Notes under the pieces: generated by a model | The model's input: only the letters and a program-made list of their open reading frames with translations | What the model was told of the DNA's origin: nothing | Database searches by the model: none | Shown: positions 1 to 63,786 of the stretch, one piece after another | How positions within the stretch are numbered: the stretch's first letter is position 1 | Layout of the letters: each line of letters opens with the position of its first letter | Assembly: GCF_002994045.1 (NCBI RefSeq) | Contig: NZ_MQUC01000003.1 | Location: 1,526,501 to 1,590,500 of the forward strand | DNA: 64,000 nucleotides | Direction: 5' to 3' | DNA from: Nonlabens agnitus | GTDB taxonomy: Bacteria > Bacteroidota > Bacteroidia > Flavobacteriales > Flavobacteriaceae | Made by a program: the position numbers and the translations under genes

Positions 1-1820
1 GCACTTGAAATGTACACCGATGGGTCGCCGTTATTATGAAAATAATACACTCGTGGATGCTCCAGATAACGATCTACAATACTAATCGCAGTAATGTTTT
101 CGCTCATCCCTTTGACGCCTGGTATCAAACAACAAATGCCACGTACGATCAATTCTATGATCACACCAGCTTGCGACGCCTCATAGAATAGATCAATCAT
201 GTTGTAATCTGAGAATGAATTGAGTTTCAATCTGATTTTTGCTGGTTTTCCCGCTTTCGCGAAAGCGATCTCACGACGAACCAATCGTTCTATTCCAGGC
301 CTAAGGAAATTAGGACTAACTAATAAGTGTTTGTATTTGTGTTGCTTGTAATTGACTTCAAAAAATTCAAAAACTCGTTCTACTTCCTTCAAAATTCTAC
401 GATCTGCCGTGAATAAGGTGTAATCCGTATAAATTCCAGCGGTCGCCTCATTGAAATTACCCGTACTTATGAATCCGTAGCGTTTCAATTTCTGATTTTC
501 TCGTCTGGTAATCATGCAGGCCTTGCAGTGTACTTTCAGGCCAGGAACACCAAAAATCATCTTGATGCCTTCTTCCTGCATCAGCTCTGCATAATTGATA
601 TTTGCTTGTTCATCAAATCTCGCCTGCAACTCGATGGAAACCGTCACTGATTTCCCATTCTTTGCAGCGTTGACCAGTGATCCAGCGATCTGGGAAACCT
701 CTGCAAGTCGATAAATAGTGATTTTTATTTCTTCTACTTGTGGGTCCAGCGCTGCCTCACGCAAGAACTTTGTGGTGTTTGCAAACGTATGATATGGAGC
801 GTATTGAAGGATGTCCTTTTGGGCAATACGCTTTAAAAGCGAGCCTTTGATATCAATGCCTTTTATGGGAAGCGCTACTTGCTTTTCATACAGTAGATCT
901 TGCCTGCCCAAGCTTGGAAACTTCAAATAGTCTCGCCTGTTATGATAACGTCCACTAGGGATAATCGAGTCCGTATCGTCGATCTCGAGCTTGCTCATGA
1001 TCAAGTCAATGGTTTCTGGATGGATCTCACGATCAAAAACAAATCGTACTGGGTCACCATCTTTACGATCATAGACACTATCTCTAATTTTTTCAAGCAA
1101 GCTTTTCTTCAAGTCCAGATCCATGTCAAGTTCTGCATCCAGCGTGACCTTGATCATATGGGCCTGAATGTCTTGATAATCAAAAATGCTGAATAGATAG
1201 TGCATGCGATGCCTTATCAAGTCATCGATAAGAATAATGTATTGCTTACCATCTTTGAGATCTGGCAATACTACAAACCTGTTGAGGTGTTTAGGCTTTT
1301 CAATTAAGGCGTGTTTAATCTTGCCTTTGGCAAAGGTCATTCTCACGGCCAGATAACCCATTCCATCTTGTAATGGCGGGAAGGCCGTCGTCTCATCAAT
1401 CATGATGACTCCTAGGGCTGGACTTACCTTTTCATTGAAATACTGCCTGATAAAATCTTCATGTTCCTTGAGGATTTCCTGCTCATCTACGATGACGATA
1501 TTCTCCTTACTCAATTCCTGCTCTAGATCATTTAGAATCTGAAAACTCAAGGTCTGATCTTTGATTACAGCCTCATTGATCTCATTAAGCAACTCTCCAG
1601 CAGATATTCCTCCTAATGATTTGGTCGCATTTTTACCTGCACGATAAATTCTTTGAATAGTGGCATATCGTACCTTAAAGAACTCATCTAGGTTATTTGA
1701 AAATATACCCAGAAAACGCAATCTTTCAATCAATGGTACGGTTGGATCATTTGCCTCTTGCAGTACGCGTGCATTGAACTTGAGCCAACTTAATTCTCTA
1801 TTATAGTATTCGTTAATCAT
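1..1820 (-). CDS. ppk1: Polyphosphate kinase 1 (C-terminus cut by window edge)
   Basis: Transfers the gamma-phosphate of ATP to inorganic polyphosphate, reversibly. About 606 codons are present; PPK1 proteins are near 690 residues, so roughly the last 80 lie outside the window. The N-terminus MINEYYNRELSWLKFNARVL is the family hallmark, and the phospholipase-D-like half shows the segments with GVPGLKVHCK and STGNFNE. The ATG at 1820 shares one base with the sixA stop (TGATG), which fixes the start and indicates translational coupling. Positions 252-267 carry the 16-bp palindrome, read here as AFAKA in REIAFAKAGKPA, where family members usually have a similar-length charged stretch. Identity is firm; only the 3' end is missing. 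Confidence 0.96.
   Translation of the reverse strand, partial: MINEYYNRELSWLKFNARVLQEANDPTVPLIERLRFLGIFSNNLDEFFKVRYATIQRIYRAGKNATKSLGGISAGELLNEINEAVIKDQTLSFQILNDLEQELSKENIVIVDEQEILKEHEDFIRQYFNEKVSPALGVIMIDETTAFPPLQDGMGYLAVRMTFAKGKIKHALIEKPKHLNRFVVLPDLKDGKQYIILIDDLIRHRMHYLFSIFDYQDIQAHMIKVTLDAELDMDLDLKKSLLEKIRDSVYDRKDGDPVRFVFDREIHPETIDLIMSKLEIDDTDSIIPSGRYHNRRDYLKFPSLGRQDLLYEKQVALPIKGIDIKGSLLKRIAQKDILQYAPYHTFANTTKFLREAALDPQVEEIKITIYRLAEVSQIAGSLVNAAKNGKSVTVSIELQARFDEQANINYAELMQEEGIKMIFGVPGLKVHCKACMITRRENQKLKRYGFISTGNFNEATAGIYTDYTLFTADRRILKEVERVFEFFEVNYKQHKYKHLLVSPNFLRPGIERLVRREIAFAKAGKPAKIRLKLNSFSDYNMIDLFYEASQAGVIIELIVRGICCLIPGVKGMSENITAISIVDRYLEHPRVYYFHNNGDPSVYISS
252..267. repeat. Palindrome CGCTTTCGCGAAAGCG, perfect copy (in ppk1)
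   Basis: Perfect 16-bp inverted repeat inside ppk1, read as Ala-Phe-Ala-Lys-Ala. Confidence 0.95.
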
Positions 1821-2302
1821 CAGATGTTTTTGGGAAATAAATGAAACGTTGTGTTTCCTTTCTCGATTTTACTCCATTCTCGTGTGGAAAACTCAATCAT
1901 CACAACACCAGTAGTAGGAACATTAGAAAAATATTCAGACCCTAGGATACCTGCTAGCTCGGTAAGTCCGTGATTGTGTGAAACAATCATGCAGCTATCC
2001 ACGTCATCACTTAAATTTTTGATCACCTCAAGTTGTTCCTTCCAATTGAACGTATATAATTTCCTGGTGATCTTAAGCTTTTTGAGCTCATAATCGATAT
2101 ACTCCGTAAGGATCGTGGCTGTTTGCAGCGCTCGGGCAGCCGTGCTGGATAAAATTAAATCGGGTAGCGTATGAATTTCTTTAAGTGCACGTCCTATGGA
2201 ATGCGCGTCATCGATTCCCTTTTGAATCAAAGGTCGATCGTGATCTCGCACATCAAATTCCCAACTGGATTTACCGTGTCTAACTAAGATCAGTTTCTTC
2301 AT
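1820..2302 (-). CDS. sixA: Phosphohistidine phosphatase SixA-like, histidine phosphatase family
   Basis: A 160-residue single-domain histidine phosphatase. The RHGKS motif near residues 8-12 carries the phospho-accepting His, and the second catalytic His lies in VSHNHGL. The Arg-containing SSTAARALQTA segment matches SixA-type proteins, which are about 160 residues long. Such enzymes remove phosphate from His in phosphorelay proteins; the real substrate here cannot be told from sequence. The start ATG overlaps the pdxH stop (TAATG) and its own stop overlaps the ppk1 start, so pdxH-sixA-ppk1 is one coupled operon. The link to ppk1 suggests a role in phosphate metabolism, which is inference. 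Confidence 0.88.
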   Translation of the reverse strand: MKKLILVRHGKSSWEFDVRDHDRPLIQKGIDDAHSIGRALKEIHTLPDLILSSTAARALQTATILTEYIDYELKKLKITRKLYTFNWKEQLEVIKNLSDDVDSCMIVSHNHGLTELAGILGSEYFSNVPTTGVVMIEFSTREWSKIEKGNTTFHLFPKNI

Positions 2303-3057: not shown

Positions 3058-3073
3058 CGCTTTCGCGAAAGCG
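3058..3073. repeat. Palindrome CGCTTTCGCGAAAGCG, perfect copy (intergenic)
   Basis: Perfect copy between pdxH and the tRNA unit. The symmetry extends three bases on each side (GTT...AAC), making a 22-bp perfect inverted repeat. Confidence 0.95.
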
Positions 3074-6877: not shown

Positions 6878-7638
6878 TGAAATACGGTATTTGTCCCATA
6901 TCCATCGCTCCCATGCGAGAGGAACCCGGCGATAAAAGCGAGATGGTTTCTCAAATCTTGTATGGCGAGGTCTGTAAAGTACTGGAACAGCGCAAGAAAT
7001 GGTCACGTATTCGATTAAGCAACGATGATTATGAAGGTTGGGTGGACAACAAGCAATATAAAGAAATATCAGAAATTGATTATACAAACCTGAGTAGTAA
7101 GAAGAATATCGCTTTCGCGAAAGATCCTATCACTACCGTCACTCATGCAGACCAGACCATCAGTTCCATCATCATGGGTTCTCAAGTGTCATCGGCTGAA
7201 TTTTTGGGAGATAGCTATTCCTTCAACGCTATTACGACTCCTGGCGCCGCAGAAAATAAATCCGCATTAATTGACGATGCATTGTTGTTGCTCAATACAC
7301 CCTACTTATGGGGTGGACGCAGCTTCATGGGAATAGATTGTAGTGGGTTCACCCAATTGATATACAAGCTCAACGGTTATTTTTTATCCCGAGATGCCAG
7401 TGATCAAGCCAAACATGGAGAAGTATTAAGTTTCATTGAAGAATCAGACCCTGGAGACTTGGCATTCTTTGACAATTCTGAAGGTCAAATCACCCATGTA
7501 GGAATGATAATGAAAGATAACTATATCATTCATGCCCATGGCAAAGTCAGGATTGATCGATTAGATCAAACAGGCATTTTCAATTTAGATACTTCCAGCC
7601 ATTCCCATAAGCTGAGGATGATTAAAAAAATTCTATAA
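6877..7638 (+). CDS. NlpC/P60 (C40) family peptidoglycan endopeptidase with SH3 domain
   Basis: A 253-residue protein with an N-terminal bacterial SH3-like region (GDKSEMVSQILYGEV, about 15-60) and a C-terminal NlpC/P60 domain. The catalytic Cys155 lies in MGIDCSGFTQL, the His in ITHVGM, and the third polar residue in IIHAHG. Members cut gamma-D-Glu to diamino-acid bonds in cell-wall peptides. No clear signal peptide is visible, so either secretion is non-classical or the start is unusual; TAATG coupling to the thiolase supports the chosen start. A 14/16 copy of the palindrome (7110-7123) is read as NIAFAKDP in the linker between the domains. Confidence 0.9.
   Translation: MKYGICPISIAPMREEPGDKSEMVSQILYGEVCKVLEQRKKWSRIRLSNDDYEGWVDNKQYKEISEIDYTNLSSKKNIAFAKDPITTVTHADQTISSIIMGSQVSSAEFLGDSYSFNAITTPGAAENKSALIDDALLLLNTPYLWGGRSFMGIDCSGFTQLIYKLNGYFLSRDASDQAKHGEVLSFIEESDPGDLAFFDNSEGQITHVGMIMKDNYIIHAHGKVRIDRLDQTGIFNLDTSSHSHKLRMIKKIL
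7110..7125. repeat. Palindrome, 14/16 copy (in NlpC/P60 gene)
   Basis: CGCTTTCGCGAAAG followed by AT instead of CG. Read as AFAK-Asp. Confidence 0.8.
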
Positions 7639-11592: not shown

Positions 11593-11608
11593 CGCTTTCG
11601 CGAAAGCG
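11593..11608. repeat. Palindrome CGCTTTCGCGAAAGCG, perfect copy (intergenic)
   Basis: Perfect copy, extended by TA on each side, in the 266-bp divergent region between gyrA and clpC. Confidence 0.95.
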
Positions 11609-14323: not shown

Positions 14324-14339
14324 GCGCAAACGTTTGCGC
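14324..14339. promoter_or_regulatory. Perfect 16-bp palindrome resembling a LacI/PurR-family operator
   Basis: GCGCAAACGTTTGCGC is perfectly symmetric around a CG centre, like known LacI-family operators (the PurR site core is GCAAACGTTTGC). It lies about 75 bp before the -7 box of the next gene. No LacI-family regulator is in the window. Function is inference. Confidence 0.45.
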
Positions 14340-14849: not shown

Positions 14850-16370
14850 TTATTTATTTTCCTGTCTAAATAATTGCAAAATAGCTGGCCCAACAAAATT
14901 GGAAATAATTCCAGCACGCAACCCTTCATGAGCATACGTTTGCGCTGCGATGTCACCAGATGCACCATGAATATACGCGCCAAAAACGGCCGCCATCAAT
15001 GGATCATAACTTTGGGCCATAAAGGAACTGATGATCCCAGAAAGAACATCACCGCTACCGGCGGTTGCCATACCAGCATTACCAGAATCATTAATGTACA
15101 TATGATCCTTATAAACGGTTATGCTATGCGCACCTTTAAGGACTAGAATCACATCGTGTTGCATTGAAAATTCTCGCGCCTTGTCCAATCGTTCCATACT
15201 GGAATCCCAACCGCCCAACAGTCGTTCTAGTTCACCATCATGAGGTGTCAAAATGGATTTGGCCGGCACATCCTTTAGTAATTCGATATTTGCAGCAAGT
15301 ATATTAATACCATCGGCGTCAATGAGGACTGGTGAGGATTGAAGTTTAATCGCTTTCGCGAAAGCGGAAACCACCTCATCACTTGTCCCTATCCCAGGAC
15401 CTACACATAAGATATATTTCTCTAGTTCTGTTTTGAAATCGTTCAATTGATCCACGCCAGAATCTGCAATGGTCATGACTTCTGGAACTGAAGATTGCAG
15501 GATGTCATTACCACAAGAAGGCACGTATGCCGTCACCTTTCCAGCGCCACTATTGATGGCTGCTGTTGATGCCAGCACGGCAGCGCCTATTTTTCCTTTG
15601 CTGCCTGCCATTACAAGCACATGACCATAATCTCCTTTGTGTGAAAACTTCTTACGTGGTCGATAGATGTTTTGTGCAGACTCGCGCGTGATCAACATGG
15701 CTGCAGGATCTGCCTGATGGATAAATGTAGGATCCAAACCTATGTTGAGCACTTCAAAAGTGCCGGTGTAATTACCCGTATCCTCCAAAAAGAAACTCAG
15801 CTTAGGACTGTTGAAGGTAAACGTATGATCTGCTTGAATCACGGCAGAATCTGCCGGCTGTGCCGTATCAGAAAATAAACCGCTAGGCATATCAATACTT
15901 ACCGTAAACGCACCAGAATCATTGGTGCGGTTGAATAGACTCGCCATCCAGCCTTTTACGGGTCGGTTAAGGCCTATTCCAAAAATGGCGTCGATCACAA
16001 TATCTTTAGGGCTTATTTCGGGAATGTCTTCCTCGCAATCCAGCAAAATGGGCCAGTCCTTAGTGACCTCTTTAACCTTGTCATAATTGACCAAAAAATC
16101 CTTAGAACGTTTCTTGCTGCAGTTGGTTACATAGGTGGTCACATGATAACCATGCTGTATCATGTGGCGCGCTATGGCAAGTCCATCACCACCATTATTC
16201 CCGATACCACAAAAAATCTTTACCGGCACTGGCGCTCCATTCAATCGCTCGTGAATCTTATTGAATACCAGCGTGGACACACGCTCCATAAGATCTGTAC
16301 TTGAAATGTTCTGGGATTTGAGGGTAGCCTGATCAGCTTCTGCGAGTTGTGCAGCGGTAAGAATTTTCAT
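14850..16370 (-). CDS. nnr: Bifunctional NAD(P)H-hydrate epimerase / ADP-dependent dehydratase
   Basis: Repairs hydrated NAD(P)H. The 506 residues hold the epimerase domain (about 1-215; FCGIGNNGGDGLAIARHM and VIDAIFGIGL) and the ribokinase-like dehydratase domain (about 225-500; HKGDYGHVLVMAGSKGKIGA, LTPHDGELERLLG and TAGSGDVLSGIISS with the catalytic Asp). Length and order are normal for the fused enzyme. The palindrome at 15351-15366 is read as SAFAKAIKL in a helix of the dehydratase domain. Divergent from gcvT. Confidence 0.95.
   Translation of the reverse strand: MKILTAAQLAEADQATLKSQNISSTDLMERVSTLVFNKIHERLNGAPVPVKIFCGIGNNGGDGLAIARHMIQHGYHVTTYVTNCSKKRSKDFLVNYDKVKEVTKDWPILLDCEEDIPEISPKDIVIDAIFGIGLNRPVKGWMASLFNRTNDSGAFTVSIDMPSGLFSDTAQPADSAVIQADHTFTFNSPKLSFFLEDTGNYTGTFEVLNIGLDPTFIHQADPAAMLITRESAQNIYRPRKKFSHKGDYGHVLVMAGSKGKIGAAVLASTAAINSGAGKVTAYVPSCGNDILQSSVPEVMTIADSGVDQLNDFKTELEKYILCVGPGIGTSDEVVSAFAKAIKLQSSPVLIDADGINILAANIELLKDVPAKSILTPHDGELERLLGGWDSSMERLDKAREFSMQHDVILVLKGAHSITVYKDHMYINDSGNAGMATAGSGDVLSGIISSFMAQSYDPLMAAVFGAYIHGASGDIAAQTYAHEGLRAGIISNFVGPAILQLFRQENK
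15351..15366. repeat. Palindrome CGCTTTCGCGAAAGCG, perfect copy (in nnr)
   Basis: Perfect copy inside the dehydratase domain, read on the minus strand as AFAKA. Confidence 0.95.
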
Positions 16371-16499: not shown

Positions 16500-17585
16500 A
16501 TGAAAAACACCGCTCTCACTAATGTTCATCAAGCGCTAGGCGCAAAAATGGTTCCTTTTGCAGGATACAATATGCCTGTTCAATATGAAGGCGTGACCAT
16601 CGAACATCATACGGTACGCAATGATGTAGGAGTCTTTGATGTGTCCCACATGGGTGAGTTTATTGTTAGTGGCCCCAAAGCCCTGGAATTGATCCAAAAA
16701 GTATCTGCAAACGATGCTTCAAAATTGGTTATAGGTAGAGCTCAATATTCTTATTTACCTAATGAAACTGGCGGCATCGTTGATGATTTACTTATTTACA
16801 AGATAAAAGACGAGCAATACCTACTCGTCGTCAACGCATCTAATATCGAGAAGGACTGGAATCACATCTCAAAATACAATGATAGCATAGGTGCAGATTT
16901 GAGAGATTTAAGTGATGATTATTCACTGCTTGCCATTCAAGGGCCCAAAGCAGTTGAGGCAATGCAGTCGTTGACAGACATTGATCTTTCTGCCATAAAA
17001 TATTATCATTTTGAAGTTGCCGCTTTCGCGAAAGCGGAACACGTCATCATCAGCGCCACAGGATACACCGGTAGCGGTGGATTTGAAATTTACTGCAAGA
17101 ATAGTGAGGTGGAACAAATATGGAATAGTGTGCTGGAAGCAGGTAAAAGTTATGGCATCAAACCCATAGGACTTGCCGCAAGAGATACACTGCGACTTGA
17201 AATGGGCTTTTGTCTATATGGAAATGATATAGACGACACCACAAGTCCCATAGAAGCTGGACTAGGTTGGGTAACTAAATTCACCAAGGACTTCATTAAT
17301 TCTGAACATCTTGCAGACCAAAAAGAAAACGGTGTACATCGCAAACTCGTAGGTTTTACCATGGATGAGAAAGCCATACCTCGCGGTGGATACAATATCA
17401 CAGATCCTGAGGGCAACCCTATAGGAATGGTGACCAGCGGTACGATGTCTCCTTCTCTAAATGTAGGATTGGGATTAGGCTACGTACCTTCATCTCTAGG
17501 TATTCCCGATAGTAAAATCTATATACAGATACGTAAGAAATTAGTACCGGCGACCGTTGTAAAACTTCCTTTCTACAAATCGTAA
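16500..17585 (+). CDS. gcvT: Glycine cleavage system aminomethyltransferase (T protein)
   Basis: Transfers the methylene group from aminomethyl-lipoyl-H protein to tetrahydrofolate. The 361-residue length is normal. Hallmarks are [14 protein letters not shown] at the start, [15 protein letters not shown], the folate-site region [36 protein letters not shown] and a C-terminal [13 protein letters not shown]. The palindrome at 17021-17036 is read as [12 protein letters not shown], where homologues have a similar-length different sequence, so it seems substituted rather than inserted. gcvH and gcvP are not in the window. Only 4 bp separate its stop from the following TTG start. Confidence 0.96.
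17021..17036. repeat. Palindrome CGCTTTCGCGAAAGCG, perfect copy (in gcvT)
   Basis: Perfect copy, read as AFAKA just before the conserved ISATGYTG motif. Confidence 0.95.
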
Positions 17586-21984: not shown

Positions 21985-22000
21985 CGCTTTCGCGAAAGCG
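21985..22000. repeat. Palindrome CGCTTTCGCGAAAGCG, perfect copy (intergenic)
   Basis: Perfect copy with symmetric TT/AA flanks between the divergent 91-residue gene and the DUF2452 gene. Confidence 0.95.
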
Positions 22001-22970: not shown

Positions 22971-24706
22971 TGAATCATTTCATACACAGCTGCGTTTTGG
23001 CCATCTTATTCTATGGCTTATACCGTTTGTTTCTTAAAGGGACTACCGGTTTTCAATGGCATCGTTTGTATTTGCTGCTCATACCAGTGGTATCTTTCAT
23101 ACTGCCATTGCTGGTCATACCACTGGATCAAGCCTTGACCACACCAGCCTTTTTAATGCCTGTCGAGATGGATGTAATGCCTGTCATCATTGAGGCTGGT
23201 CAACAACCTGTGACGCCTGCAACTCCTAAAATAGAATGGACTAACATTTTATGGACCACCTATTTCTTAGGGCTGACCACGGCTGTGATTCTGTTTATCA
23301 TCAAACTCGCACGTATTCAAAACTATAAAGAGCAAGGACAGACTATCTACCAAAATGGGGTTTACATCACAAAAGTTCACGACCTGCCTACGGCCTTCTC
23401 TTTTATGAACCATATCTATATCAATGACGCTTTCGCGGAAGCGAGATACGAACAGGTCCTACTGCACGAAATCACACACATCAAACAGAAGCACAGTTGG
23501 GATTTGTTATTCTATGAATTGTTGCGCATTGTTTTCTGGTTCCATCCAGTACCCTATCTAGCGCAGCGCGAACTTAAAATGGTTCATGAGCATATCGCAG
23601 ATCATAGAACTATAGCTGCTTATGGTAAAAAATCCTATTACGAAAACCTATTGAAGGAAGCCCTGGATTGTCCAGACTTCTCGTTTACCAATCCCTTTTT
23701 TAAATCCAAAACCATTAAAACCCGTTTAACCATGATACAAAAATCCCAAAACCAGAAATTCCCATTCCGCAAGTTGTTGTGGATGCTACCCGTTTTATTT
23801 GCAAGCTTGATTTATACGGCTTGTAGCACTGAACAGGAAGTGATCAAAGTGGAACAGAAAACGTATAGAGTTGATGAATTACCTACTCTTCAAGATCATG
23901 TCTATGGGCAAATTGACTTTTATAAAGGTGTTACAGCAGATGAAATGGAGGTTTTGGAAAAAGGGAACGAGACTATTAAACGGTATATAGGTGATGATAC
24001 CAGCAAGGAGAAGAGTTTTGAGGTTGCTAAAAGGATATTGCGGGATCCAAATTTTAAGGAATATCGTAGAGTCATGGACAAAATAAACAATAATGGCAAA
24101 ACAATAGTACGTGACGTCGAGAACAACAATTATGTTTTAACCATCCAAGAGTATGAAAATGGAAGTCCTTCTTTTACGGGAACCGGTCCGATCGATCAAT
24201 TAAATATGAGCAATGATGAAATTTCAGCTTATTTAAAAGATTTACATGAGAAGTACGGTAAGGCCGACGATGTGACCGTAATTACAGAAATTGAGTTAAT
24301 AGAAGAAAAATCTGATATGCAAAATCGGGCAGTAGTTGTTCCTTTTGCAATTATAGAAAACGTTCCAACTTATCCAGGTTGCATTGGCGATAACGCAGAG
24401 AAGAAGAAATGTATGCAGCAAAATATTGCGCAGCTGGTACAAGAAAATTTTGACACTTCCATTGCCAACAAAGTTGGGTTAAGCGGTAAACAAACCATTT
24501 CTGTTCAATTTAAAATTGATCAAAATGGCAATGTTGCAAACATTATATCTAGAGCCAAAGCTCCAGAACTTCAAGCCGAAGCGGCTCGAGTTGTCAACTT
24601 GTTGCCTAAAATGCAACCGGGAACTCAACGAGGACAAAATGTAGGTGTCATTTACGGCTTACCCATTATTTTCAATGTTCCAGAAGAGTCCAAAAAAGAG
24701 GATTAA
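22970..24706 (+). CDS. BlaR1-like M56 membrane metallopeptidase with C-terminal TonB-like domain
   Basis: A 578-residue protein. N-terminal membrane helices (about 5-20, 35-55 and 90-110), then the M56 domain with zinc motif HEITH (residues 166-170) and a later Glu-containing helix (HEHIADH), and another membrane helix near 270 (LLWMLPVLFASLIYTA). The periplasmic part ends in a TonB C-terminal-like domain (about 490-570: SVQFKIDQNGNVANI). It probably senses an envelope signal and releases BlaI repression by proteolysis. A one-mismatch palindrome (23428-23443) is read as NDAFAEARY just before the active site. Confidence 0.9.
   Translation: MNHFIHSCVLAILFYGLYRLFLKGTTGFQWHRLYLLLIPVVSFILPLLVIPLDQALTTPAFLMPVEMDVMPVIIEAGQQPVTPATPKIEWTNILWTTYFLGLTTAVILFIIKLARIQNYKEQGQTIYQNGVYITKVHDLPTAFSFMNHIYINDAFAEARYEQVLLHEITHIKQKHSWDLLFYELLRIVFWFHPVPYLAQRELKMVHEHIADHRTIAAYGKKSYYENLLKEALDCPDFSFTNPFFKSKTIKTRLTMIQKSQNQKFPFRKLLWMLPVLFASLIYTACSTEQEVIKVEQKTYRVDELPTLQDHVYGQIDFYKGVTADEMEVLEKGNETIKRYIGDDTSKEKSFEVAKRILRDPNFKEYRRVMDKINNNGKTIVRDVENNNYVLTIQEYENGSPSFTGTGPIDQLNMSNDEISAYLKDLHEKYGKADDVTVITEIELIEEKSDMQNRAVVVPFAIIENVPTYPGCIGDNAEKKKCMQQNIAQLVQENFDTSIANKVGLSGKQTISVQFKIDQNGNVANIISRAKAPELQAEAARVVNLLPKMQPGTQRGQNVGVIYGLPIIFNVPEESKKED
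23428..23443. repeat. Palindrome, 15/16 copy (in M56 gene)
   Basis: CGCTTTCGCGGAAGCG; one A-to-G change turns AFAKA into AFAEA, about 20 bp before the HEITH codons. Confidence 0.85.
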
Positions 24707-27313: not shown

Positions 27314-28984
27314 TTACCTCAAAAATTTGAAGTAGTCCAATAATATCTTATCGTTGATTTCACGCGGTGTCTGTATCTCCAACAATTGTGGTGCAGTGTT
27401 GGTATGGATGAATTGTTGGTACGCTTTCGCGAAAGCGAACTCTTCATCAATCTTTGTATAACCAAATCCATGCATGGCACACAAGTGACTGGCGTCTAAA
27501 TGGTGTGTAGTCTCAAAATAGGTGGAGAAATAAACTTCCTGCTTCTCACCTGGCAAGATTCTAAAGATGCCACCACCGCTATTGTTGATCAGTATGATCT
27601 TAAAGTTCTTGGGAATGTAATTGTTCCAAAGTCCATTGGAATCGTAGAAAAAACTAAGATCTCCAGTAATTAAAACCGTCGGCATTCCAGAACCTACTGC
27701 AGCACCTATGGCAGTACTGGTACAGCCATCGATACCGCTGGTGCCACGATTAGAAAAAATACGGTGTGTGGCGTTCATCTTGAATAACTGCGCATACCTA
27801 ATGGTACTACTATTACCTAATTGCAAAACGATGTCATCTGGAAGGTGTTCAAATAACAATTCAAAAACCTTCATATCGCTCCATCCTATTTTTTCAAAAT
27901 AGGCAGGACGCTTTGAAAGGTAATCCTTGAAATGATGGAGCCATTGCTCTTGATAAGTGCTGGGTTGTGTTTGCACTGGTAGCGAGTGCAACCATTTTCT
28001 AGGCGCGATCTTGATATGTGCGGCAAGTTTAAAAAAGGTATCATAGGCCCTACGTTTGCCTATGTGGTAATGGATGTTGGTCTCAAACCTGCGCAGGTAC
28101 TGCTTGATTTTTTTAGAAACGATCATACCGCCTATGGTAACTACCATATCTGGCTGCAAGGCTGCAATCTGGTCATCGTCAAATTCAATAGGCGCTATTA
28201 AGGTGTCGATTCCCCAAACAATATTCTCGTGCACGATATTTGAGCTTACTTCACTCATTACCAACACACTGCCGTCTGCGGTTAAACGATCTATATCTTC
28301 CTTCTCAAATACCGGCGGATTGAGCGTCGAGAGTATAACAAGCTTACGTTTTGAATTGTTCCAGTTTTCGTAAAATGCTGCTGGGATTTCAGTAGTCTCG
28401 TCTTTGAGTACATCCATCACTTTCACATCCATAGATGGCTGTTCTACCGTATTATACAGCGGTTCTTCAAATGGGACGTTGATGTGAACAGGACCGTGTT
28501 TTGATATAGCTGTGTTGATCGCTTTATTGAGCTGCCGCTCGTTAGTAATCAAATATTCCTTTTGATCTGATCTAGTGATCATTTCCAGTTGCGTATCAAA
28601 CAAGATATGGTTTGCAAAAACATGTTTTTGGCGGATGGTCTGGCCATCGCCTATATCAATCTTGTGTGGTGGACGGTCAGCACTTAAAACAATTAATGGT
28701 ATCTCACTATAGTAGGCCTCTGCCACCGCAGGATAATAATTGAGCAAAGCACTACCGCTGGTACAAAGAAGGACCGTTGGCTCCTGCAGCTGTTGCGCAA
28801 TTCCCATCGCAAAATGCCCTGCACATCGCTCATCAACAATACTATAGCAATTGAAGAATGAATCCTGAGAGAAACTAATGGTTAATGGAGCATTGCGAGA
28901 ACCTGGAGATATAATAATGTTTTTAATATCCCTTTTCTTGAATAACTGGATGATTTGCTGAGCGTGTAGAACGGATGTCATCAT
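27314..28984 (-). CDS. menD: SEPHCHC synthase
   Basis: A thiamine-diphosphate enzyme that joins 2-oxoglutarate to isochorismate in menaquinone synthesis. At 556 residues it has normal length. Visible are ISPGSRNAPLTI near the N-terminus, the Glu-containing VDERCAGHFAMGIA, and the ThDP/Mg motif GDLSFFYDSNGLWNN. The palindrome at 27422-27437 is read as EEFAFAKAYQQ near the C-terminus. It lies downstream of menI-menF on the same strand, with a 330-bp gap. A -7 box is directly upstream. Confidence 0.96.
   Translation of the reverse strand: MMTSVLHAQQIIQLFKKRDIKNIIISPGSRNAPLTISFSQDSFFNCYSIVDERCAGHFAMGIAQQLQEPTVLLCTSGSALLNYYPAVAEAYYSEIPLIVLSADRPPHKIDIGDGQTIRQKHVFANHILFDTQLEMITRSDQKEYLITNERQLNKAINTAISKHGPVHINVPFEEPLYNTVEQPSMDVKVMDVLKDETTEIPAAFYENWNNSKRKLVILSTLNPPVFEKEDIDRLTADGSVLVMSEVSSNIVHENIVWGIDTLIAPIEFDDDQIAALQPDMVVTIGGMIVSKKIKQYLRRFETNIHYHIGKRRAYDTFFKLAAHIKIAPRKWLHSLPVQTQPSTYQEQWLHHFKDYLSKRPAYFEKIGWSDMKVFELLFEHLPDDIVLQLGNSSTIRYAQLFKMNATHRIFSNRGTSGIDGCTSTAIGAAVGSGMPTVLITGDLSFFYDSNGLWNNYIPKNFKIILINNSGGGIFRILPGEKQEVYFSTYFETTHHLDASHLCAMHGFGYTKIDEEFAFAKAYQQFIHTNTAPQLLEIQTPREINDKILLDYFKFLR
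27422..27437. repeat. Palindrome CGCTTTCGCGAAAGCG, perfect copy (in menD)
   Basis: Perfect copy near the 3' end of menD, read as AFAKA. Confidence 0.95.
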
Positions 28985-34076: not shown

Positions 34077-34092
34077 CGCTTTCGCGAAAGCG
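34077..34092. repeat. Palindrome CGCTTTCGCGAAAGCG, perfect copy (intergenic)
   Basis: Perfect copy with TT/AA flanks between the convergent M28 and helicase genes, 18 bp from the helicase stop. Confidence 0.95.
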
Positions 34093-36490: not shown

Positions 36491-36506
36491 CGCTTTCGCG
36501 AAAGCG
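36491..36506. repeat. Palindrome CGCTTTCGCGAAAGCG, perfect copy (intergenic)
   Basis: Perfect copy between the convergent VTT-protein and OmpA genes. Confidence 0.95.
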
Positions 36507-40044: not shown

Positions 40045-41039
40045 AAAATAAAACCCAAGCCTGGATCAGTGCTGCCAGACCACGTACGTTGCCGTTGAGT
40101 ATTAGTGGCATTCTTGTGGGTAGTGCCTATGCTTATCTGGATATCGCTTTCGCGAAAGCGAGCTATAATGTGTTCGATGGACTATACAATCATATACCGG
40201 TCATTTATTTCAACTGGTGGATTCCTATTCTAGCCTTATTAACAACGCTAGGTTTCCAGATTCTATCCAATTTTGCCAATGACTATGGCGATGGAGTTAA
40301 GGGAACCGATAATGACGAGCGCATAGGTCCCATGAGAGCCATTCAAAGCGGCATCATCAAACCACCAGAAATGAAGCGTGTGATGATCATTACTTCTGTC
40401 CTCACTTTTTTATGTGCCGTTGCCTTGATTTATGTGAGCTTGGGATTGGAGCAACTTTTGATTTCTCTTTTCTTCTTAGTTCTTGGCATCGCGGCGATAT
40501 GGGCGGCTATAAAATACACCGTTGGCGATAATGCCTATGGCTATCGAGGCCTTGGAGATGTTTTTGTATTTATATTTTTTGGCCCGGTAAGCGTGATGGG
40601 TATTTACTTCTTGATTACTTCGGTTCTGGATTGGAGTTTTATCCTACCATCGTTTACAATCGGGTTATTGAGTGTTGCGGTACTTAATCTGAACAACATG
40701 CGAGATATTGAAAGTGATAAGAAATCTGGAAAGAATACCATTCCCGTAAAGTTGGGACTGGAAAAATCAAAGAGGTTGCATTTCGCTTACCTTATAATAG
40801 CTTTCGTCTCCTTGATGCTGTTTCTATGGATACAGTTTATTAAATCGGGCAGTTTAGAACTATCCGTATCGTATGTGCTGTTCTTACCTATACTGGCTTT
40901 CATACCACTACTAAAACATCTGTTGACCGTTAGGAGCATAGCTTCTTCCATACTTCTGGATCCCGAATTGAAAAAAGTAGCCTTGTCTACATTTCTTCTG
41001 GCCCTTCTATCCATTGTAAGCGTTATAGTTGTTAGCTAA
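40041..41039 (+). CDS. menA: 1,4-dihydroxy-2-naphthoate polyprenyltransferase
   Basis: Attaches the isoprenoid chain to DHNA, making demethylmenaquinone at the inner membrane. A 332-residue UbiA-fold protein with about nine membrane helices. The Asp-rich prenyl-binding motif is NFANDYGDGVKGTDND, and the second is NMRDIESDKKSGKNTIPVKLG. It starts with TTG in a TTGA overlap with holA. The palindrome at 40145-40160 is read as DIAFAKASYN in the loop after the first membrane helix. Confidence 0.95.
   Translation: MKNKTQAWISAARPRTLPLSISGILVGSAYAYLDIAFAKASYNVFDGLYNHIPVIYFNWWIPILALLTTLGFQILSNFANDYGDGVKGTDNDERIGPMRAIQSGIIKPPEMKRVMIITSVLTFLCAVALIYVSLGLEQLLISLFFLVLGIAAIWAAIKYTVGDNAYGYRGLGDVFVFIFFGPVSVMGIYFLITSVLDWSFILPSFTIGLLSVAVLNLNNMRDIESDKKSGKNTIPVKLGLEKSKRLHFAYLIIAFVSLMLFLWIQFIKSGSLELSVSYVLFLPILAFIPLLKHLLTVRSIASSILLDPELKKVALSTFLLALLSIVSVIVVS
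40145..40160. repeat. Palindrome CGCTTTCGCGAAAGCG, perfect copy (in menA)
   Basis: Perfect copy read as AFAKA in an extramembrane loop of MenA. Confidence 0.95.
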
Positions 41040-43476: not shown

Positions 43477-45918
43477 ATGGCCCGCAAAAAATCAACTACT
43501 AAAAAGAAAGCCACAGGCAAGACCAATTCCCTATCCATGCCGTCCTTTAAACTATCTCGTTTACAGGAAGTTATTGTAGGTTTTTTTCTCATTGCTCTAG
43601 GTATCGTCTTTTTACTATCGTTCACCTCATTCCTACTTACCTGGCGCAGCGATCAAAGCATTTTGGGACGACTCACAGAACGTGAACTGGAAGCTCAAAA
43701 CTGGCTCAGCAAACTTGGTGCATGGTTGGGCAACGTTTTCGTTTATGACGGGTTCGGTATTGCGGCTTTTTCCATCGCCATTCTACTCATTATTACAGGA
43801 ACTTACTTATTTGCAGCAAAGCGTGGAGCGTTTTCGCTTTCGCGAAAGCGAATTTCCCTTCTATGGATTTGGGGTCTGCCGCTCATGCTGTGGCTGTCCG
43901 TATTTTTTGGGTTTTTCCACCAGAGCATACCATTATTGGGCGGTATGGTGGGCATGGAACTTAACGACTTCATGCAAGATTACATTGGTTTGATAGGAAC
44001 CATTATTGTCATGGCGTTTCTCGCACTTATTTATCTCACCTTGAGATTGGGCGTCACTCCAGAGAAAATAAGCAGCTACTTCAAACGTAAATCGGCTCAG
44101 GTTAAAGAAGGATTTGATCCATTGGAAAATATTGAAGCGACTGACGAGGAAACCGATTGGAAAACCAATACCATTGAAGGCCAAACGATAGGCGATGACA
44201 ATGTCGATCTTACCGAGATCACAATCACTGAAGACGATGAAGAAGAAATTCCAGAACCTGTCCTAAAAACCGAACCCATTAGTCCTATTATTACTTCTAT
44301 TCCAGCCACCGGCGACGGTGATGACATAGGCATGGACATAGAGCAAACGGTCGATGAAGAAGAAGTGTTTGACAATAAGGCGTCGAAGTTGGTGCAGGAT
44401 TTTGGCGAATTTGATCCGACCCTAGAATTAAGCAACTACCAGTTCCCGCCTATTGATCTTTTAAAGGATTATACTAAAGGTAAAACCATCACCATCAACG
44501 AGCAAGAACTGCAAGCGAACAAAGATCGCATCGTGGACACGCTCAAGAATTACAAAATAGGCATTGCCAAAATCACAGCTACTGTTGGACCTACGGTAAC
44601 TCTATATGAAATTGTACCAGAGGCTGGTGTGCGTATCTCTAAAATCAAGAATCTAGAGGACGATATCGCTTTATCACTTGCGGCACTTGGAATTAGAATC
44701 ATCGCTCCTATTCCTGGTAAAGGTACCATAGGTATTGAGGTGCCTAATCAAAACCCTTCTATTGTATCCATGCGATCTGTGATTGCATCGCCCAAGTTCC
44801 AAAATGCAGAAATGGCGCTGCCTATTGCTTTTGGAAAGACCATCAGCAACGAGACCTTTGTCGTGGATCTTGCCAAAATGCCTCACCTACTCATGGCTGG
44901 TGCTACAGGTCAAGGTAAATCGGTAGGATTGAATGCGGTGCTGACCTCACTACTATACTCAAAACACCCAGCCGAAGTCAAATTCGTACTGGTAGATCCC
45001 AAAAAAGTAGAATTAACGCTCTTCAATAAAATCGAGCGTCATTATCTCGCAAAACTTCCAGACAGCGAGGAAGCTATCATTACTGACAATTCCAAAGTTA
45101 TCAATACGCTCAACAGCCTGTGTATTGAAATGGACCAGCGTTATGACATCTTGAAAGAGGCCATGTGCCGTAACATTAAGGAGTATAATGCAAAGTTTAA
45201 GGCTAGAAAACTGAACCCAGCAAATGGACACAAGTTCCTACCTTATATAGTATTGGTAGTGGACGAGTTTGCAGACCTGATCATGACCGCTGGTAAAGAG
45301 GTAGAAACACCCATCGCGAGATTGGCACAACTGGCTCGAGCCATCGGGATTCACTTGATTATTGCAACGCAGCGACCATCGGTTAATGTGATAACTGGTA
45401 TGATCAAGGCAAACTTCCCAGCGCGTGTGTCATTTAGGGTACAACAAAAAGTCGATTCCAGGACCATTCTGGACAGTGGTGGCGCAGATCAATTGATAGG
45501 TCGTGGTGACATGTTGTACACTTCTGGAAATGAGATCATCCGTATTCAATGTGCCTTTGTAGACACGCCAGAAGTGGAGAAAATCACAGATTTTATAGGC
45601 TCACAAAAGGCTTACCCAGACGCTCATCTCCTACCAGAATACGTGGGCGAGGAAGGTGGCACAAGTCTTGATATTAGTATAGAAGAGCGTGATGCTAAGT
45701 TCAAGGAAGCCGCTGAAATTATCGTGGTAGCACAACAAGGCAGCGCCTCATTATTGCAACGCAAGTTAAAACTGGGCTACAATCGTGCCGGTAGAATTAT
45801 TGACCAACTGGAGGCCGCTGGAATCGTAGGTGGTTTTGAAGGTAGTAAAGCCCGTCAGGTGCTCATTCCAGACTTAGCGTCGCTAGAAGTATTTTTAAAT
45901 GCAGAAAAGCAGAATTAA
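43477..45918 (+). CDS. ftsK: DNA translocase FtsK
   Basis: An 813-residue septal DNA pump. Four membrane helices (about 30-195), an acidic linker (about 210-310), the alpha/beta motor with Walker A GATGQGKS and Walker B LVVDEFADLI, and the gamma winged helix (about 740-805: SLLQRKLKLGYNRAGRIIDQ). The palindrome at 43835-43850 is read in a different frame, as SLSRKRIS, in a short loop between membrane helices. The next gene, lolA, starts one base after the stop. Confidence 0.97.
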   Translation: MARKKSTTKKKATGKTNSLSMPSFKLSRLQEVIVGFFLIALGIVFLLSFTSFLLTWRSDQSILGRLTERELEAQNWLSKLGAWLGNVFVYDGFGIAAFSIAILLIITGTYLFAAKRGAFSLSRKRISLLWIWGLPLMLWLSVFFGFFHQSIPLLGGMVGMELNDFMQDYIGLIGTIIVMAFLALIYLTLRLGVTPEKISSYFKRKSAQVKEGFDPLENIEATDEETDWKTNTIEGQTIGDDNVDLTEITITEDDEEEIPEPVLKTEPISPIITSIPATGDGDDIGMDIEQTVDEEEVFDNKASKLVQDFGEFDPTLELSNYQFPPIDLLKDYTKGKTITINEQELQANKDRIVDTLKNYKIGIAKITATVGPTVTLYEIVPEAGVRISKIKNLEDDIALSLAALGIRIIAPIPGKGTIGIEVPNQNPSIVSMRSVIASPKFQNAEMALPIAFGKTISNETFVVDLAKMPHLLMAGATGQGKSVGLNAVLTSLLYSKHPAEVKFVLVDPKKVELTLFNKIERHYLAKLPDSEEAIITDNSKVINTLNSLCIEMDQRYDILKEAMCRNIKEYNAKFKARKLNPANGHKFLPYIVLVVDEFADLIMTAGKEVETPIARLAQLARAIGIHLIIATQRPSVNVITGMIKANFPARVSFRVQQKVDSRTILDSGGADQLIGRGDMLYTSGNEIIRIQCAFVDTPEVEKITDFIGSQKAYPDAHLLPEYVGEEGGTSLDISIEERDAKFKEAAEIIVVAQQGSASLLQRKLKLGYNRAGRIIDQLEAAGIVGGFEGSKARQVLIPDLASLEVFLNAEKQN
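43835..43850. repeat. Palindrome CGCTTTCGCGAAAGCG, perfect copy (in ftsK)
   Basis: Perfect copy in a reading frame giving LSRKR instead of AFAKA. Confidence 0.95.
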
Positions 45919-46569
45919 ATGAAAATGAAGAATTTATATCTATTGCTGGTGGTTTTTTTCGCTTTCGCGAAAGCGGGAACAGCACAATCCAATCAAGCAT
46001 CAAAATTGCTGGATGAAGTGGCAGCAAAATATAAGAGCTATGACAATGTCACTTTTACCTATAAGGGAAATCTGAAAAACTCTAAAGCCAACTTTGATAC
46101 AGACTTACAAGGTGAGGCAAAATTGAGTGGCAATAAGTACAATGCGACCTACAATGGTACAACCTATATGTACGATGGTAGAAAATTGTACACGATCAAT
46201 CGTGAGGACGAACAAGTCACCATTGCCACCCAAAACAATGACGGTAGTGAAATGATCAATCCTTCCAACATCATGACGTTCTATCAAAAAGGTTACAACA
46301 AGGAATTAGATATTGTACAAAACGTGAAGGGAAGAAAAATCCAATACGTGAAGCTCACACCTATCAAATCAGGATCTGACTACAAGAATATTCTTTTGGG
46401 AATCGATGCCAATACCAAGCATATTTACAACACCATCATTACAGAGCGCAGCGGCACGGTGATTACGTTTACGCTGCAAACCTTTAAGACGAATGAGCCT
46501 TTAGCTAAAAACTGTTTTACCTTTGATCCTAGCCAGTATAAAAACTGGGACATTGAGGAAATGAACTAG
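45919..46569 (+). CDS. lolA: Outer-membrane lipoprotein carrier protein LolA
   Basis: Periplasmic carrier of lipoproteins to the outer membrane, 216 residues. After a signal peptide the segments SYDNVTFTYKGNLKN, LQGEAKLSGNKY and MYDGRKLYTIN form the half-barrel. The palindrome at 45960-45975 encodes part of the signal peptide itself (VVFFAFAKAGTAQ), placing a Lys near the cleavage site. Starts one base after the ftsK stop, followed two bases later by the lptF/G gene. Confidence 0.9.
   Translation: MKMKNLYLLLVVFFAFAKAGTAQSNQASKLLDEVAAKYKSYDNVTFTYKGNLKNSKANFDTDLQGEAKLSGNKYNATYNGTTYMYDGRKLYTINREDEQVTIATQNNDGSEMINPSNIMTFYQKGYNKELDIVQNVKGRKIQYVKLTPIKSGSDYKNILLGIDANTKHIYNTIITERSGTVITFTLQTFKTNEPLAKNCFTFDPSQYKNWDIEEMN
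45960..45975. repeat. Palindrome CGCTTTCGCGAAAGCG, perfect copy (in lolA signal peptide)
   Basis: Perfect copy read as AFAKA within the LolA signal sequence. Confidence 0.95.
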
Positions 46570-52856: not shown

Positions 52857-54037
52857 AAGAGGACTTTTTTAAATATCAAGCGCCCACGACTCCATTTGCT
52901 CCAGGTCTAGAAATAGAACGCGCTTCTGGAAACTACATCATCGATACGCAGGGTAACAAGTATCTGGATATGGTGGCAGGTGTCAGCGCCTTGCCGTTGG
53001 GACATTGCCATCCTGAAGTGGTAAACGCCATTAAAGATCAAGTGGATCGGTACATGCACGTTATGGTTTATGGTGAATATGCCCAGAAACCTGCAGTGGA
53101 ATTGTGCAAATTGCTAGCGAGCACGATGCCGGCGCCCTTAGACATGACCTATCTGGTAAACAGTGGTACAGAAGCCATTGAAGCCTCCATCAAGCTGGCC
53201 AAAACCGTTACCCAACGCTCAGAGATTATTGCCATGAAGAATTGTTATCATGGGAACACGCTAGGTTCGCTTAGTCTGATGAATTATGAAGAGCGCAAGG
53301 CACCATTCAGACCGCTGTTGCCAGATATAAAGCATATTCAATTCAATTGCCTGCCAGACTTAAAAAGGATTACCCATAAAACAGCAGCCGTGGTGATGGA
53401 AACCATCCAAGGTGGTGCGGGTTTTATCATGCCAGACAAACGCTGGTTCCAGGCGTTGCGGGAAACCTGTACCAAAATGGGAGCCTTATTGATTCTGGAC
53501 GAGATTCAGCCAGGTGTTGGCCGTACTGGCACCATGTGGCATTTTGAGCAACACAACATTGTTCCCGACGTCGTGGTAAGCGGTAAAGGCCTTGCGGGTG
53601 GTCTTCCCATTGGTTCGCTAACGGCCAGTTCAGAGCACTTGAATCACTTCAAAACATCACCCATGTTGGGGCACATCACCACCTTTGGTGGTAATCCTGT
53701 GATTGCTTCAGCGGCTCTTGCAACCCTGCAGGTGATATTACGAGAAGGTTATATGGAACGTGTGAAGATGATGGAATTACGCTTTCGCGAAAGCTTACTA
53801 TCCAAACATATCGTGCAAGTAAGAGGCACCGGTTTGATGCTGGCTGCCATATTGCCTGATGCGACACATACGGCTGCCATTGTTGATCGTTGTAGGGAAA
53901 AAGGTGTGATTTTCTTTTTGCTGCTTTTTGAAAAGCGAGCCATACGCATCACGCCGCCCTATACCGTGACTATGGATGAAATTGATCACGCCTGTAATAT
54001 TTTAAAGCAAACAATTGCCGAATTCTACGGCTCATAA
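52853..54037 (+). CDS. Class III pyridoxal-phosphate aminotransferase
   Basis: A 394-residue fold-type I aminotransferase. The PLP Lys lies in VVSGKGLAGGLPIGS, the preceding Asp in LILDEIQPGVGRTG, and the phosphate-binding NSGTEAIEASIKLAK is typical of class III (acetylornithine/ornithine/GABA type). The substrate is unknown; ArgD-like activity cannot be told apart. Starts with TTG. A 15/16 palindrome copy at 53780-53795 is read as RFRES. Confidence 0.92.
   Translation: MKEDFFKYQAPTTPFAPGLEIERASGNYIIDTQGNKYLDMVAGVSALPLGHCHPEVVNAIKDQVDRYMHVMVYGEYAQKPAVELCKLLASTMPAPLDMTYLVNSGTEAIEASIKLAKTVTQRSEIIAMKNCYHGNTLGSLSLMNYEERKAPFRPLLPDIKHIQFNCLPDLKRITHKTAAVVMETIQGGAGFIMPDKRWFQALRETCTKMGALLILDEIQPGVGRTGTMWHFEQHNIVPDVVVSGKGLAGGLPIGSLTASSEHLNHFKTSPMLGHITTFGGNPVIASAALATLQVILREGYMERVKMMELRFRESLLSKHIVQVRGTGLMLAAILPDATHTAAIVDRCREKGVIFFLLLFEKRAIRITPPYTVTMDEIDHACNILKQTIAEFYGS
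53780..53795. repeat. Palindrome, 15/16 copy (in aminotransferase gene)
   Basis: CGCTTTCGCGAAAGCT; read in the third possible frame, as RFRES. Confidence 0.85.
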
Positions 54038-61714: not shown

Positions 61715-62005
61715 GCTAAAATCAGTTAAGTTTAATTTTATAGAGGTTAGGAGATCATTCTGATAAACTTGTATCAAATATAAACCGCTGTCCAACTCAT
61801 TCATTCCATTAATCGTCTCAATGCTTCCACTTCTGGTCTTCTCCACCATATGCATTTGTTGACCTAAAGTATGGAAGATTTTAAAAGTCATCGGATTCCA
61901 AGCCTCTAGGTTGTAGATGGTAACGGCATCACTGCTGGAAGGATTAGAAAATATGGAGATCGCTTACGCGAAAGCGGGATCATGATCGATCCTTAAAGCA
62001 GATGA
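61715..62005 (-). pseudogene. Remnant of a type IX secretion (Por) C-terminal sorting domain
   Basis: Read in frame with the small protein gene are the pieces ISIFSNPSSSDAVTIYN, FKIFHTLGQQM and MNELDSGLYLIQVYQNDLL, the recognisable pattern of a type A sorting domain (NPS, LGQQ, SGLYLIQV). No cargo protein precedes it: a stop (TAA, 61966-61964) interrupts the frame inside a palindrome copy, followed by another at 62008. It is thus a degraded gene end. Confidence 0.65.
61961..61976. repeat. Palindrome, 15/16 copy (in T9SS-domain remnant)
   Basis: CGCTTACGCGAAAGCG; the T-to-A change turns the AFAKA Lys codon (minus strand AAA) into a TAA stop. Confidence 0.85.
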
Positions 62006-62649: not shown

Positions 62650-63786
62650 CTAACTAAAAACTTTTGTTATAACACTAGCAATACGCTCCCTATCGGCATT
62701 TGTGAGATTTGATCCAGAAGGAAGGCACAAACCCTTTTCAAAAAGCTCCTCGCATACGGTACCTCCATAATAGGGGTACTTGGAATAAAGAGGTTGCAGG
62801 TGCATAGGTTTCCATAAAGGGCGTGATTCTATGTTTTCGGCTTCTAATGCCAGTCGCAAATCCTCTCTCGTAATACCACCGGTGACAGCTGGATCAACTA
62901 AAATGGCACTAAGCCAATGGTTAGAATAATAATCGGCAGATTTTTCAACGAGAACCTCTACTCCATCGATAGCTGCAAACAATTCTTGATAAAATTGATT
63001 CATAGCACGGCGTAGATGGACATGCTTATCAAGGACTTGCATCTGGCCACGACCTATACCGGCACTAATATTACTCATACGGTAATTGTAACCTACCTCA
63101 CTATGCTGATAATGCGGCGCCTCGTCTCTTGCTTGGGTGGCCAGATAAACTGTTTTTTGTTTATCCTCTATGGAATGGCAAACCATCGCTCCACCACCGC
63201 TGGTCGTGATGATTTTGTTACCGTTAAAACTAAGGATCCCAAAGTCCCCAAAGGTTCCGCATTTTCGTCCGTTGTAACTACTACCTAAAGCCTCAGCGCT
63301 ATCTTCAATGACGGGTATGGAGTACGCTTTCGCGAAAGCATGAATCTCATCCACCTTATAGGGCATACCATACAAGTGCACCGCGATAATGGCTTTGGGC
63401 TTCTTACCTTTATCAATACGGTCTTCTATAGCACTTTTTAAAGAATCAGGACACATGTTCCAAGTGTCGCGCTCACTATCCACTAAAATAGGTGTAGCAC
63501 CTAGATACAATATGGGATTGGAGCTACCACAAAAAGTAAAACTTTGGCAAATGACCTCATCGCCGGCGGTCACACCTGCCTGGATAAGTGCGAGATGAAT
63601 CGCTGCAGTACCAGAGCTTAGGGCCGCTACCTTAACATCCTGACCCTGATAGGTTTCTAGGTCCTTTTCAAATCCGTTGACATTAGGTCCTAGAGGTGCC
63701 ACCCAGTTCGTATCAAACGCCTCGGTCACAAAGTCACGTTCTGCACCACCCATATGCGGTGAAGACAGCCAAATTTTTTCTTGCAT
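62650..63786 (-). CDS. DegT/DnrJ/EryC1-type sugar aminotransferase (PglE-like)
   Basis: A 378-residue PLP enzyme for amino sugars. Signatures: WLSSPHMGGAERDFVTEAF at the N-terminus, SGTAAIHLAL, VIEDSAEALGSSYNGRKCGTFGD and the PLP Lys in SFNGNKIITTSGGG. Together with the capD/pglF-like dehydratase and a sugar transferase this fits a bacillosamine-type (4-amino-4,6-dideoxy) sugar route. A palindrome copy is read as HAFAKAYSIPVIED, where family members have a same-length, similar stretch. Confidence 0.93.
   Translation of the reverse strand: MQEKIWLSSPHMGGAERDFVTEAFDTNWVAPLGPNVNGFEKDLETYQGQDVKVAALSSGTAAIHLALIQAGVTAGDEVICQSFTFCGSSNPILYLGATPILVDSERDTWNMCPDSLKSAIEDRIDKGKKPKAIIAVHLYGMPYKVDEIHAFAKAYSIPVIEDSAEALGSSYNGRKCGTFGDFGILSFNGNKIITTSGGGAMVCHSIEDKQKTVYLATQARDEAPHYQHSEVGYNYRMSNISAGIGRGQMQVLDKHVHLRRAMNQFYQELFAAIDGVEVLVEKSADYYSNHWLSAILVDPAVTGGITREDLRLALEAENIESRPLWKPMHLQPLYSKYPYYGGTVCEELFEKGLCLPSGSNLTNADRERIASVITKVFS
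63325..63340. repeat. Palindrome, 15/16 copy (in pglE-like gene)
   Basis: CGCTTTCGCGAAAGCA; read as AFAKA on the minus strand. Confidence 0.85.

Follow-up and report, generated by a model that had tools for sequence, protein, structure and literature searches.

What is the 16-bp palindrome CGCTTTCGCGAAAGCG doing in twelve perfect copies and five variants within 64 kb of the chromosome of Nonlabens agnitus? The stretch in which the question arises, hereafter the window, comprises 64,000 nucleotides from this member of the Flavobacteriaceae (contig NZ_MQUC01000003.1, positions 1,526,501 to 1,590,500), and the number of copies expected in it, as estimated from 100 dinucleotide shuffles, is 0. 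A sequence-only reading of the window had listed these copies, and we confirm every one of them; four of the variants have one change, and the variant at 7110 has two. Our analysis leads us to propose, tentatively, that the motif is a lineage-specific, dyad-symmetric recognition site in double-stranded DNA that marks the DNA of its carriers as their own, most likely a DNA-uptake sequence.

Copy number and anatomy of the element

The motif is not peculiar to the window. The source genome (G000; 3,215,882 bases) holds 676 perfect 16-mers and 762 copies of the inner 14-mer, whereas the reversed, uncomplemented 16-mer, which served as the control, has 0 copies in the whole genome; the suspicion of the sequence-only reading that such a motif is far too frequent for chance is borne out by this count. 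In 464 kb of sequence that include the window, sites with 0, 1, 2, 3, 4 and 5 mismatches number 106, 21, 7, 4, 10 and 76, against 0, 0, 0, 0, 8 and 76 in a single first-order random sequence of the same length. The mismatch spectrum is close to all-or-nothing, with few intermediates.

The anatomy of the element was described from 220 sites with at most two mismatches in 864 kb of the source genome (the window plus 800 kb in stretches). The whole element spans about 50 bp and consists of a near-invariant 16-bp palindrome with symmetric arms that extend to ±25 bp. The left arm is T-rich at positions 9-11, has A at 12, T at 17 and 19-20, and G at 22-23, and the right arm mirrors it; C is depleted across the left arm, as is G across the right. 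Measured from the motif centre, the arms fall roughly one and two turns of the helix away. A matrix built from these same sites gives a mean arm score of +8.4 at the sites and −9.8 at random positions, and a score above 0 at 93% of the sites and 4.7% of random positions. The same bias in arm composition is found in three other Nonlabens and in the Dokdonia-like genome G206, and it is weaker in G190. The sequence-only reading had taken the flanks to be free past a few symmetric bases; this was wrong, since the symmetric pattern reaches about ±25 bp, and it is only beyond the arms that no flank is common to the copies.

Do the arms pair with each other in a folded strand? Opposite arm positions show no clear covariation beyond composition, the largest z among the 27 positions tested being 2.4, at the first arm position. 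Since symmetric arms without covariation point to a protein-DNA dyad rather than to a folded strand, the element looks, from its sequence, like a site for a protein on double-stranded DNA and not like an RNA hairpin.

Placement, persistence and distribution

Genes in the 864 kb were called with a home-made periodic Markov gene caller. By these calls, 128 of the 220 sites are genic and 92 intergenic, an intergenic excess, given that intergenic sequence makes up 14.7% of the total. The genic copies are read as AFAKA (81), LSRK (29) or RFRE (18). Along the chromosome the copies keep a distance from one another. In the 464 kb around the window the coefficient of variation (CV) of the spacing is 0.558, while in 2000 random placements with the genic/intergenic split preserved the CV averages 1.014 and never falls below 0.764, and gaps shorter than 1.5 kb number 15 where random placement gives 47.9. 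The other 400 kb behave similarly (CV 0.718 against a random minimum of 0.727; 7 short gaps against 25.7). Over the 464 kb the pair correlation rises from 0.21 (0-1 kb) through 0.52 (1-2 kb) to about 1 at larger distances, so that the spacing is a short-range repulsion below about 2 kb, without long-range order. This agrees with the earlier description of a chromosome-wide motif, in genes and between them, that is not an insertion sequence, and adds that its spacing is non-random.

Some stretches are empty of the motif. In the 864 kb there are 11 motif-free gaps longer than 9 kb, and motif density correlates with GC content in 10-kb bins (rho 0.44; mean GC 0.40). The explanation that the empty stretches are foreign DNA holds only in part: five of them have a GC content of 0.37 or less (lowest 0.255), and the other six, at 0.38-0.44, are near the mean. 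One 20-kb motif-free stretch (G000:C4:332468-352821, with locus L247 inside) carries a type II/IV secretion ATPase (PF00437).

How well do the sites persist? In the FtsK regions of eight Nonlabens, where background identity is 69-89%, 124 of 154 site comparisons keep at least 14 of the 16 bases; the comparisons cover alignable places only and are ordered pairs, a shared site being counted twice. The FtsK copy itself occurs at the matching place in all eight Nonlabens FtsK compared. The menD site is found in all three Nonlabens compared, with a two-change form in G010, and the last-base variant at 53780 has a matching context in five of seven other Nonlabens loci, with a two-change form in the sixth and a seventh (L143) that is too short. 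Some copies lost or gained between Nonlabens species align with short gaps (7110 and 45960 relative to G394) or in a messy way (40145). Two pairs of close Nonlabens share nine and four sites and differ at one, numbers that do not suffice to estimate turnover.

The manner in which sites arise can be approached through the proteins that contain them. Comparison with solved structures covers 5 of the 10 genic copies in the window. Four of these five proteins (GcvT, MenD, Nnr and the sugar aminotransferase) align without gaps across the motif with their best solved relative, and the fifth, the ArgD-like enzyme, has no motif-sized insert relative to its own. GcvT is also gapless against its counterpart in N. 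xylanidelens (G242), which has no motif at that place; against a second solved relative, PDB 1woo, it has a one-residue gap just past the motif. In the BlaR1-like gene the structural alignment begins just past the copy at 23428. These alignments suggest that sites are mostly gained by substitution in place and not by insertion of a block, with FtsK, to which we return below, as the exception. In several Nonlabens and Dokdonia a copy lies in the N-terminal, signal-peptide-like stretch of LolA (45919-46569 in the window; L155, L183), where the AFAKA reading suits the A-x-A pattern of signal peptides.

The sequence-only reading had pointed to related Flavobacteriaceae as the place to look for the motif, and there its massive presence proves to be narrow. 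In a survey of 397 genomes from 237 genera of the family, in which the inner 14-mer was counted, six genomes have more than 400 copies and all others 0-19. These six, which we call carriers, are the four Nonlabens sampled (762, 578, 664 in G242, and 609), G190 (408) and G206 (857), and very high copy numbers are confined to three of the 237 genera: Nonlabens, Dokdonia and the genus of G190. Outside the family, no genome has more than one copy of the 14-mer or the 16-mer in two overlapping samples, one with 246 genomes from the order and one with 395 from the phylum; in the phylum sample, only the source genome has more than two.

Among the best 80 named FtsK loci, six of them shorter than 10 kb, the 14-mer occurs in nine: six Nonlabens, BBFL7 and two Dokdonia. 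In the FtsK tree BBFL7 adjoins N. ulvanivorans, the source FtsK lies among Nonlabens, G206 groups with Dokdonia and with L176, a 13-kb locus from a metagenome-assembled genome (MAG), and G190 adjoins Leeuwenhoekiella, which has no motif. Motif presence requires four changes on this tree, three of them forced by well-supported branches, with gain and loss indistinguishable. L176 and a second MAG locus near Leeuwenhoekiella, L163, lack the 14-mer and have two degraded copies each, with three mismatches, which hints at a loss of the system in these lineages. Motif "dialects" in other genera, sought in those of the 80 loci that are at least 15 kb long, were rejected; the repeated palindromes and 12-mers there are tandem, local or AT-rich repeats. 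A dispersed 10-mer palindrome, AACCGCGGTT, has three copies in L188 (Salegentibacter) and one copy in one other locus.

Phages differ in whether they carry the motif. The related Nonlabens phages P12024S and P12024L (71 kb) have 0 copies at up to three mismatches, whereas the density in the host would predict about 18; neither has an annotated integrase, and we take both to be lytic. On the other hand, the 16-mer is found in 30 viral contigs, and the 13 of them that were tallied hold 53 sites in 249 kb, a host-like density in contigs chosen for having the motif. Several of the remaining contigs are GC-rich, with a single copy. The gene content of three of the tallied contigs includes portal and major head/capsid genes in two (one also with terminase and tail sheath) and an integrase in the third.

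In several motif-poor genera, the few copies are clustered in a single region, which has a recurrent 933-bp pair. The motif regions of other genera (L068, L069, L070, L072 and L077 among them) are islands related to one another, with 72-95% identity across 1-13 kb, of which L070 contains resistance-nodulation-division (RND) efflux and multicopper oxidase genes (plasmid BLAST). The islands look like transfers from a carrier lineage, L070 apparently being a metal-efflux island. Perfect copies make up 21 of 53 on the islands against 175 of 228 in the source genome (p 6e-7) and 43 of 78 in the other carriers apart from G190 (p 0.11); the latter difference is not significant, and we do not rely on a decay of copies on transferred islands. 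The motif also offers a ready way to recognise phages and islands that once resided in Nonlabens or Dokdonia.

Candidate functions

If the element is an uptake signal, it would be bound, while DNA is being taken up, by a protein acting as a symmetric dimer or in a larger complex, and the palindromy speaks for a dimeric reader. The reader would lie within the flavobacterial machinery known from Riemerella: an outer-membrane barrel with a DUF5689 surface protein, a periplasmic helix-hairpin-helix (HHH) protein, ComEC and DprA. DNA with a copy would be taken up better and then recombined back into the chromosome; through this preferential uptake and recombination copies would spread by drive, until no fragment of uptake size, a few kb, is without one.

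It is the combination of copy number, lineage specificity, gain by substitution, spacing, intergenic excess and the contrast between phages that makes the motif resemble uptake sequences. In one study, uptake sequences are described as regular in spacing, over-represented between genes and acquired through point mutation (PMC1939737); in another, uptake signal sequences (USS) accumulate, with exceptions, in phages that lysogenise Pasteurellaceae and not in large, likely lytic phages (PMC6776037). With the DNA-uptake sequences (DUS) of Neisseriaceae and the USS of Pasteurellaceae the Nonlabens motif shares hundreds of copies, even spacing, genic copies along with an intergenic excess, gain mostly by substitution, and presence in some phages only. 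Moreover, it recalls the layout of USS, in which a GC-rich core is accompanied by T-rich tracts in helical phase. Unlike DUS and USS, the motif is a strict palindrome with two-fold symmetric arms, has about one copy per 3.5-4.8 kb and belongs to another phylum.

What machinery could read it? Transformation in Riemerella, of the same family, requires ComEC, DprA, ComF and RecA together with four proteins unlike known uptake parts, and these four include a surface protein with DUF5689 and a predicted protein of the outer membrane, both encoded in one operon (PMC8459023). From the genes listed we infer that Riemerella takes up DNA without a pilus, and since it needs novel proteins, a missing pilus is not fatal to the uptake reading. 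R. columbina prefers its own DNA, and only short k-mers of untested role are put forward as candidates there (PMC7965970). In its full form, our proposal is that the motif would be the first palindromic DNA-uptake sequence and the first in Bacteroidota, a site of about 50 bp that is read by flavobacterial machinery without a type IV pilus, has spread through three genera and is stamped on phages and metal-efflux islands; as a whole we regard this as possible but doubtful.

A number of points weigh against an uptake signal. Strictly palindromic sites are more often those of dimeric DNA-binding proteins that act inside the cell. The Nonlabens FtsK segment at the motif is six residues longer than in 12 relatives (two Dokdonia and ten others), and the FtsK copy may have been gained by an 18-bp insertion. 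The uptake sequences described so far are not palindromes (PMC1939737). The classical members are pilus-based, whereas a pilus-type ATPase (PF00437) is above the cut-off in only two of the six carriers (G000 and G242, three of the other four being drafts); a classical pilus receptor therefore cannot serve all carriers, and we rejected this ATPase as the reader. The uptake genes do not discriminate either. ComEC, DprA and DUF5689 are present in all six carriers, but so are they in non-carriers, in sets that differ by gene (DUF5689 in 22 of 24, ComEC in 18 of 18, DprA in 6 of 6). DUF5689, found in 28 of 30 genomes, was rejected as a reader by co-occurrence, for it bears no signature of carriers: the carriers form no clade in its tree, and at no alignment column do they differ consistently from the rest. 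All six carriers have an open reading frame (ORF) upstream of the DUF5689 gene, which we take to be a putative outer-membrane partner. The pilus-type ATPase, the Y1 transposase, two methyltransferase families and the uptake genes were compared with the distribution of the motif, and none of them tracks it. Finally, we found no report of competence in Nonlabens or Dokdonia in a literature that was looked at little near that point.

The main rival explanation makes the motif the binding site of an intracellular protein that organises DNA genome-wide (nucleoid-associated, condensin-loading, segregation, or replication/repair), with about one site per 2-5 kb, and we consider this a serious possibility, if not one on which we would settle. 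Such a protein would suit a strictly dyad-symmetric site whose arms, free of covariation, bring it to about 50 bp, and also the even spacing, the positional conservation among the eight Nonlabens and the presence of the motif in some viral contigs. High copy number in so few of the genera sampled in the family would, however, be odd for a basic chromosome function, and no candidate protein was found, although few were looked for and no search was made for ParB, SMC or nucleoid proteins. The palindromes of parS and Noc, which are 14-16 bp long with TTTC...GAAA halves and have few or tens of copies, resemble the Nonlabens motif in length and halves; the spacing of the halves differs, and so do the hundreds of copies genome-wide. 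Chi and KOPS are genome-wide over-represented signals that are oriented and short, and unlike them a palindromic motif cannot give direction. If the intracellular explanation is true, the motif reveals a new chromosome-organising system.

It is improbable, in our view, that the motif is an iterated palindrome like HIP1, maintained through DNA methylation or through repair or recombination that acts on a methylated sequence within it. The likeness is that of a genome-wide iterated palindrome found in and between genes, as HIP1 (GCGATCGC) is in cyanobacteria (PMC4390886). However, the Nonlabens motif is different and longer, occurs in another host and is constrained over 16 bp plus arms to about 50 bp. 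Usual methyltransferase sites are shorter than this, and only 4 of the 209 TTCGCGAA octamers in the 864 kb lie outside the motif. Moreover G242, for all its copies of the 14-mer, has no match to PF00145 or PF01555, the two methyltransferase families searched; neither is common to all carriers, and both were rejected as the reader.

Far less likely still, and largely refuted, is a dispersing mobile palindrome, be it like the repetitive extragenic palindromic (REP) sequences with their associated tyrosine transposases (RAYT) or the Rickettsia palindromic elements, both named by the sequence-only reading, or a miniature inverted-repeat transposable element (MITE). The motif shares with REP/RAYT and Rickettsia elements that it is a dispersed palindrome, its many copies are near-identical, and an 18-bp insertion would explain the longer FtsK. 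But nothing in G000 or G190 matches the RAYT-typical Y1 transposase domain (PF01797), while the other four carriers have 1-6 matches each and 6 of 18 non-carriers have matches too; as this domain does not track the motif, it was rejected as the reader. The copies are not mainly extragenic, and except in FtsK the motif replaces sequence in register, without a block insert in any of the five proteins; the arms do not covary, decayed copies are few, and nothing past the arms is shared. A Rickettsia palindromic element is a block of about 100-150 bp inserted in frame, whereas the region common to the Nonlabens copies is only about 50 bp and four of the five protein alignments are gapless. Least likely of all is a transcription terminator or other RNA hairpin element: the core could, by eye, form a short hairpin in RNA, but the arms lack covariation, most sites are genic, and there is no convergent-gene enrichment, with 13 of the 92 intergenic copies between convergent genes, which account for 20% of intergenic bases.

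Only a few signals iterated across genomes, namely uptake sequences, Chi and KOPS, have a known function. An evenly spaced dyad site with 676 copies, in a phylum without an established one among the literature matches listed, offers a direct handle on how Flavobacteriaceae may tell their own DNA apart. Searches on the motif, on uptake sequences and on iterated palindromes, including those in Flavobacteria, gave no description of the element among the matches listed, with most subscription journals outside their scope, and the 16-mer itself was not found in the literature searched.

The copies in the window

The copies of the motif in the window and their surroundings are collected in the table.

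Table. Copies of the 16-bp core in the window, with their context (listed ORFs are those of at least 100 aa)
Core	Position	Strand	Context
perfect	252..267	.	arms ~235-284; window-edge ORFs absent from ORF list
perfect	3058..3073	.	between listed ORFs
2 changes	7110..7125	.	within ORF 6877-7638; reading IAFAKD
perfect	11593..11608	.	between DNA gyrase subunit A gene (8891-11422) and Clp-type ATPase gene (11689-14238)
perfect	15351..15366	.	within NAD(P)H-hydrate repair enzyme (Nnr-like) gene 14850-16370, minus; SAFAKA; gapless vs PDB 2ax3
perfect	17021..17036	.	within gcvT 16500-17585; AAFAKA; gapless vs PDB 1yx2
perfect	21985..22000	.	between listed ORFs
1 change	23428..23443	.	within gene weakly like BlaR1 (22970-24706); DAFAEA
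perfect	27422..27437	.	within menD 27314-28984, minus; FAFAKA; gapless vs PDB 2x7j
perfect	34077..34092	.	between listed ORFs
perfect	36491..36506	.	between listed ORFs
perfect	40145..40160	.	within ORF 40041-41039; IAFAKA
perfect	43835..43850	.	within ftsK 43477-45918; SLSRKR
perfect	45960..45975	.	N-terminus (signal-peptide-like by eye) of LolA gene 45919-46569; FAFAKA
1 change	53780..53795	.	within acetylornithine-type aminotransferase (ArgD-like) gene 52853-54037; last-base variant
1 change	61961..61976	.	between listed ORFs
1 change	63325..63340	.	within sugar aminotransferase gene 62650-63786, minus; HAFAKA; gapless vs PDB 1o61

The window also contains one perfect copy of another 16-bp palindrome, GCGCAAACGTTTGCGC, at 14324-14339, just 3' of the Clp-type gene, with a two-mismatch copy at 14930; it resembles operators of the LacI/PurR type.

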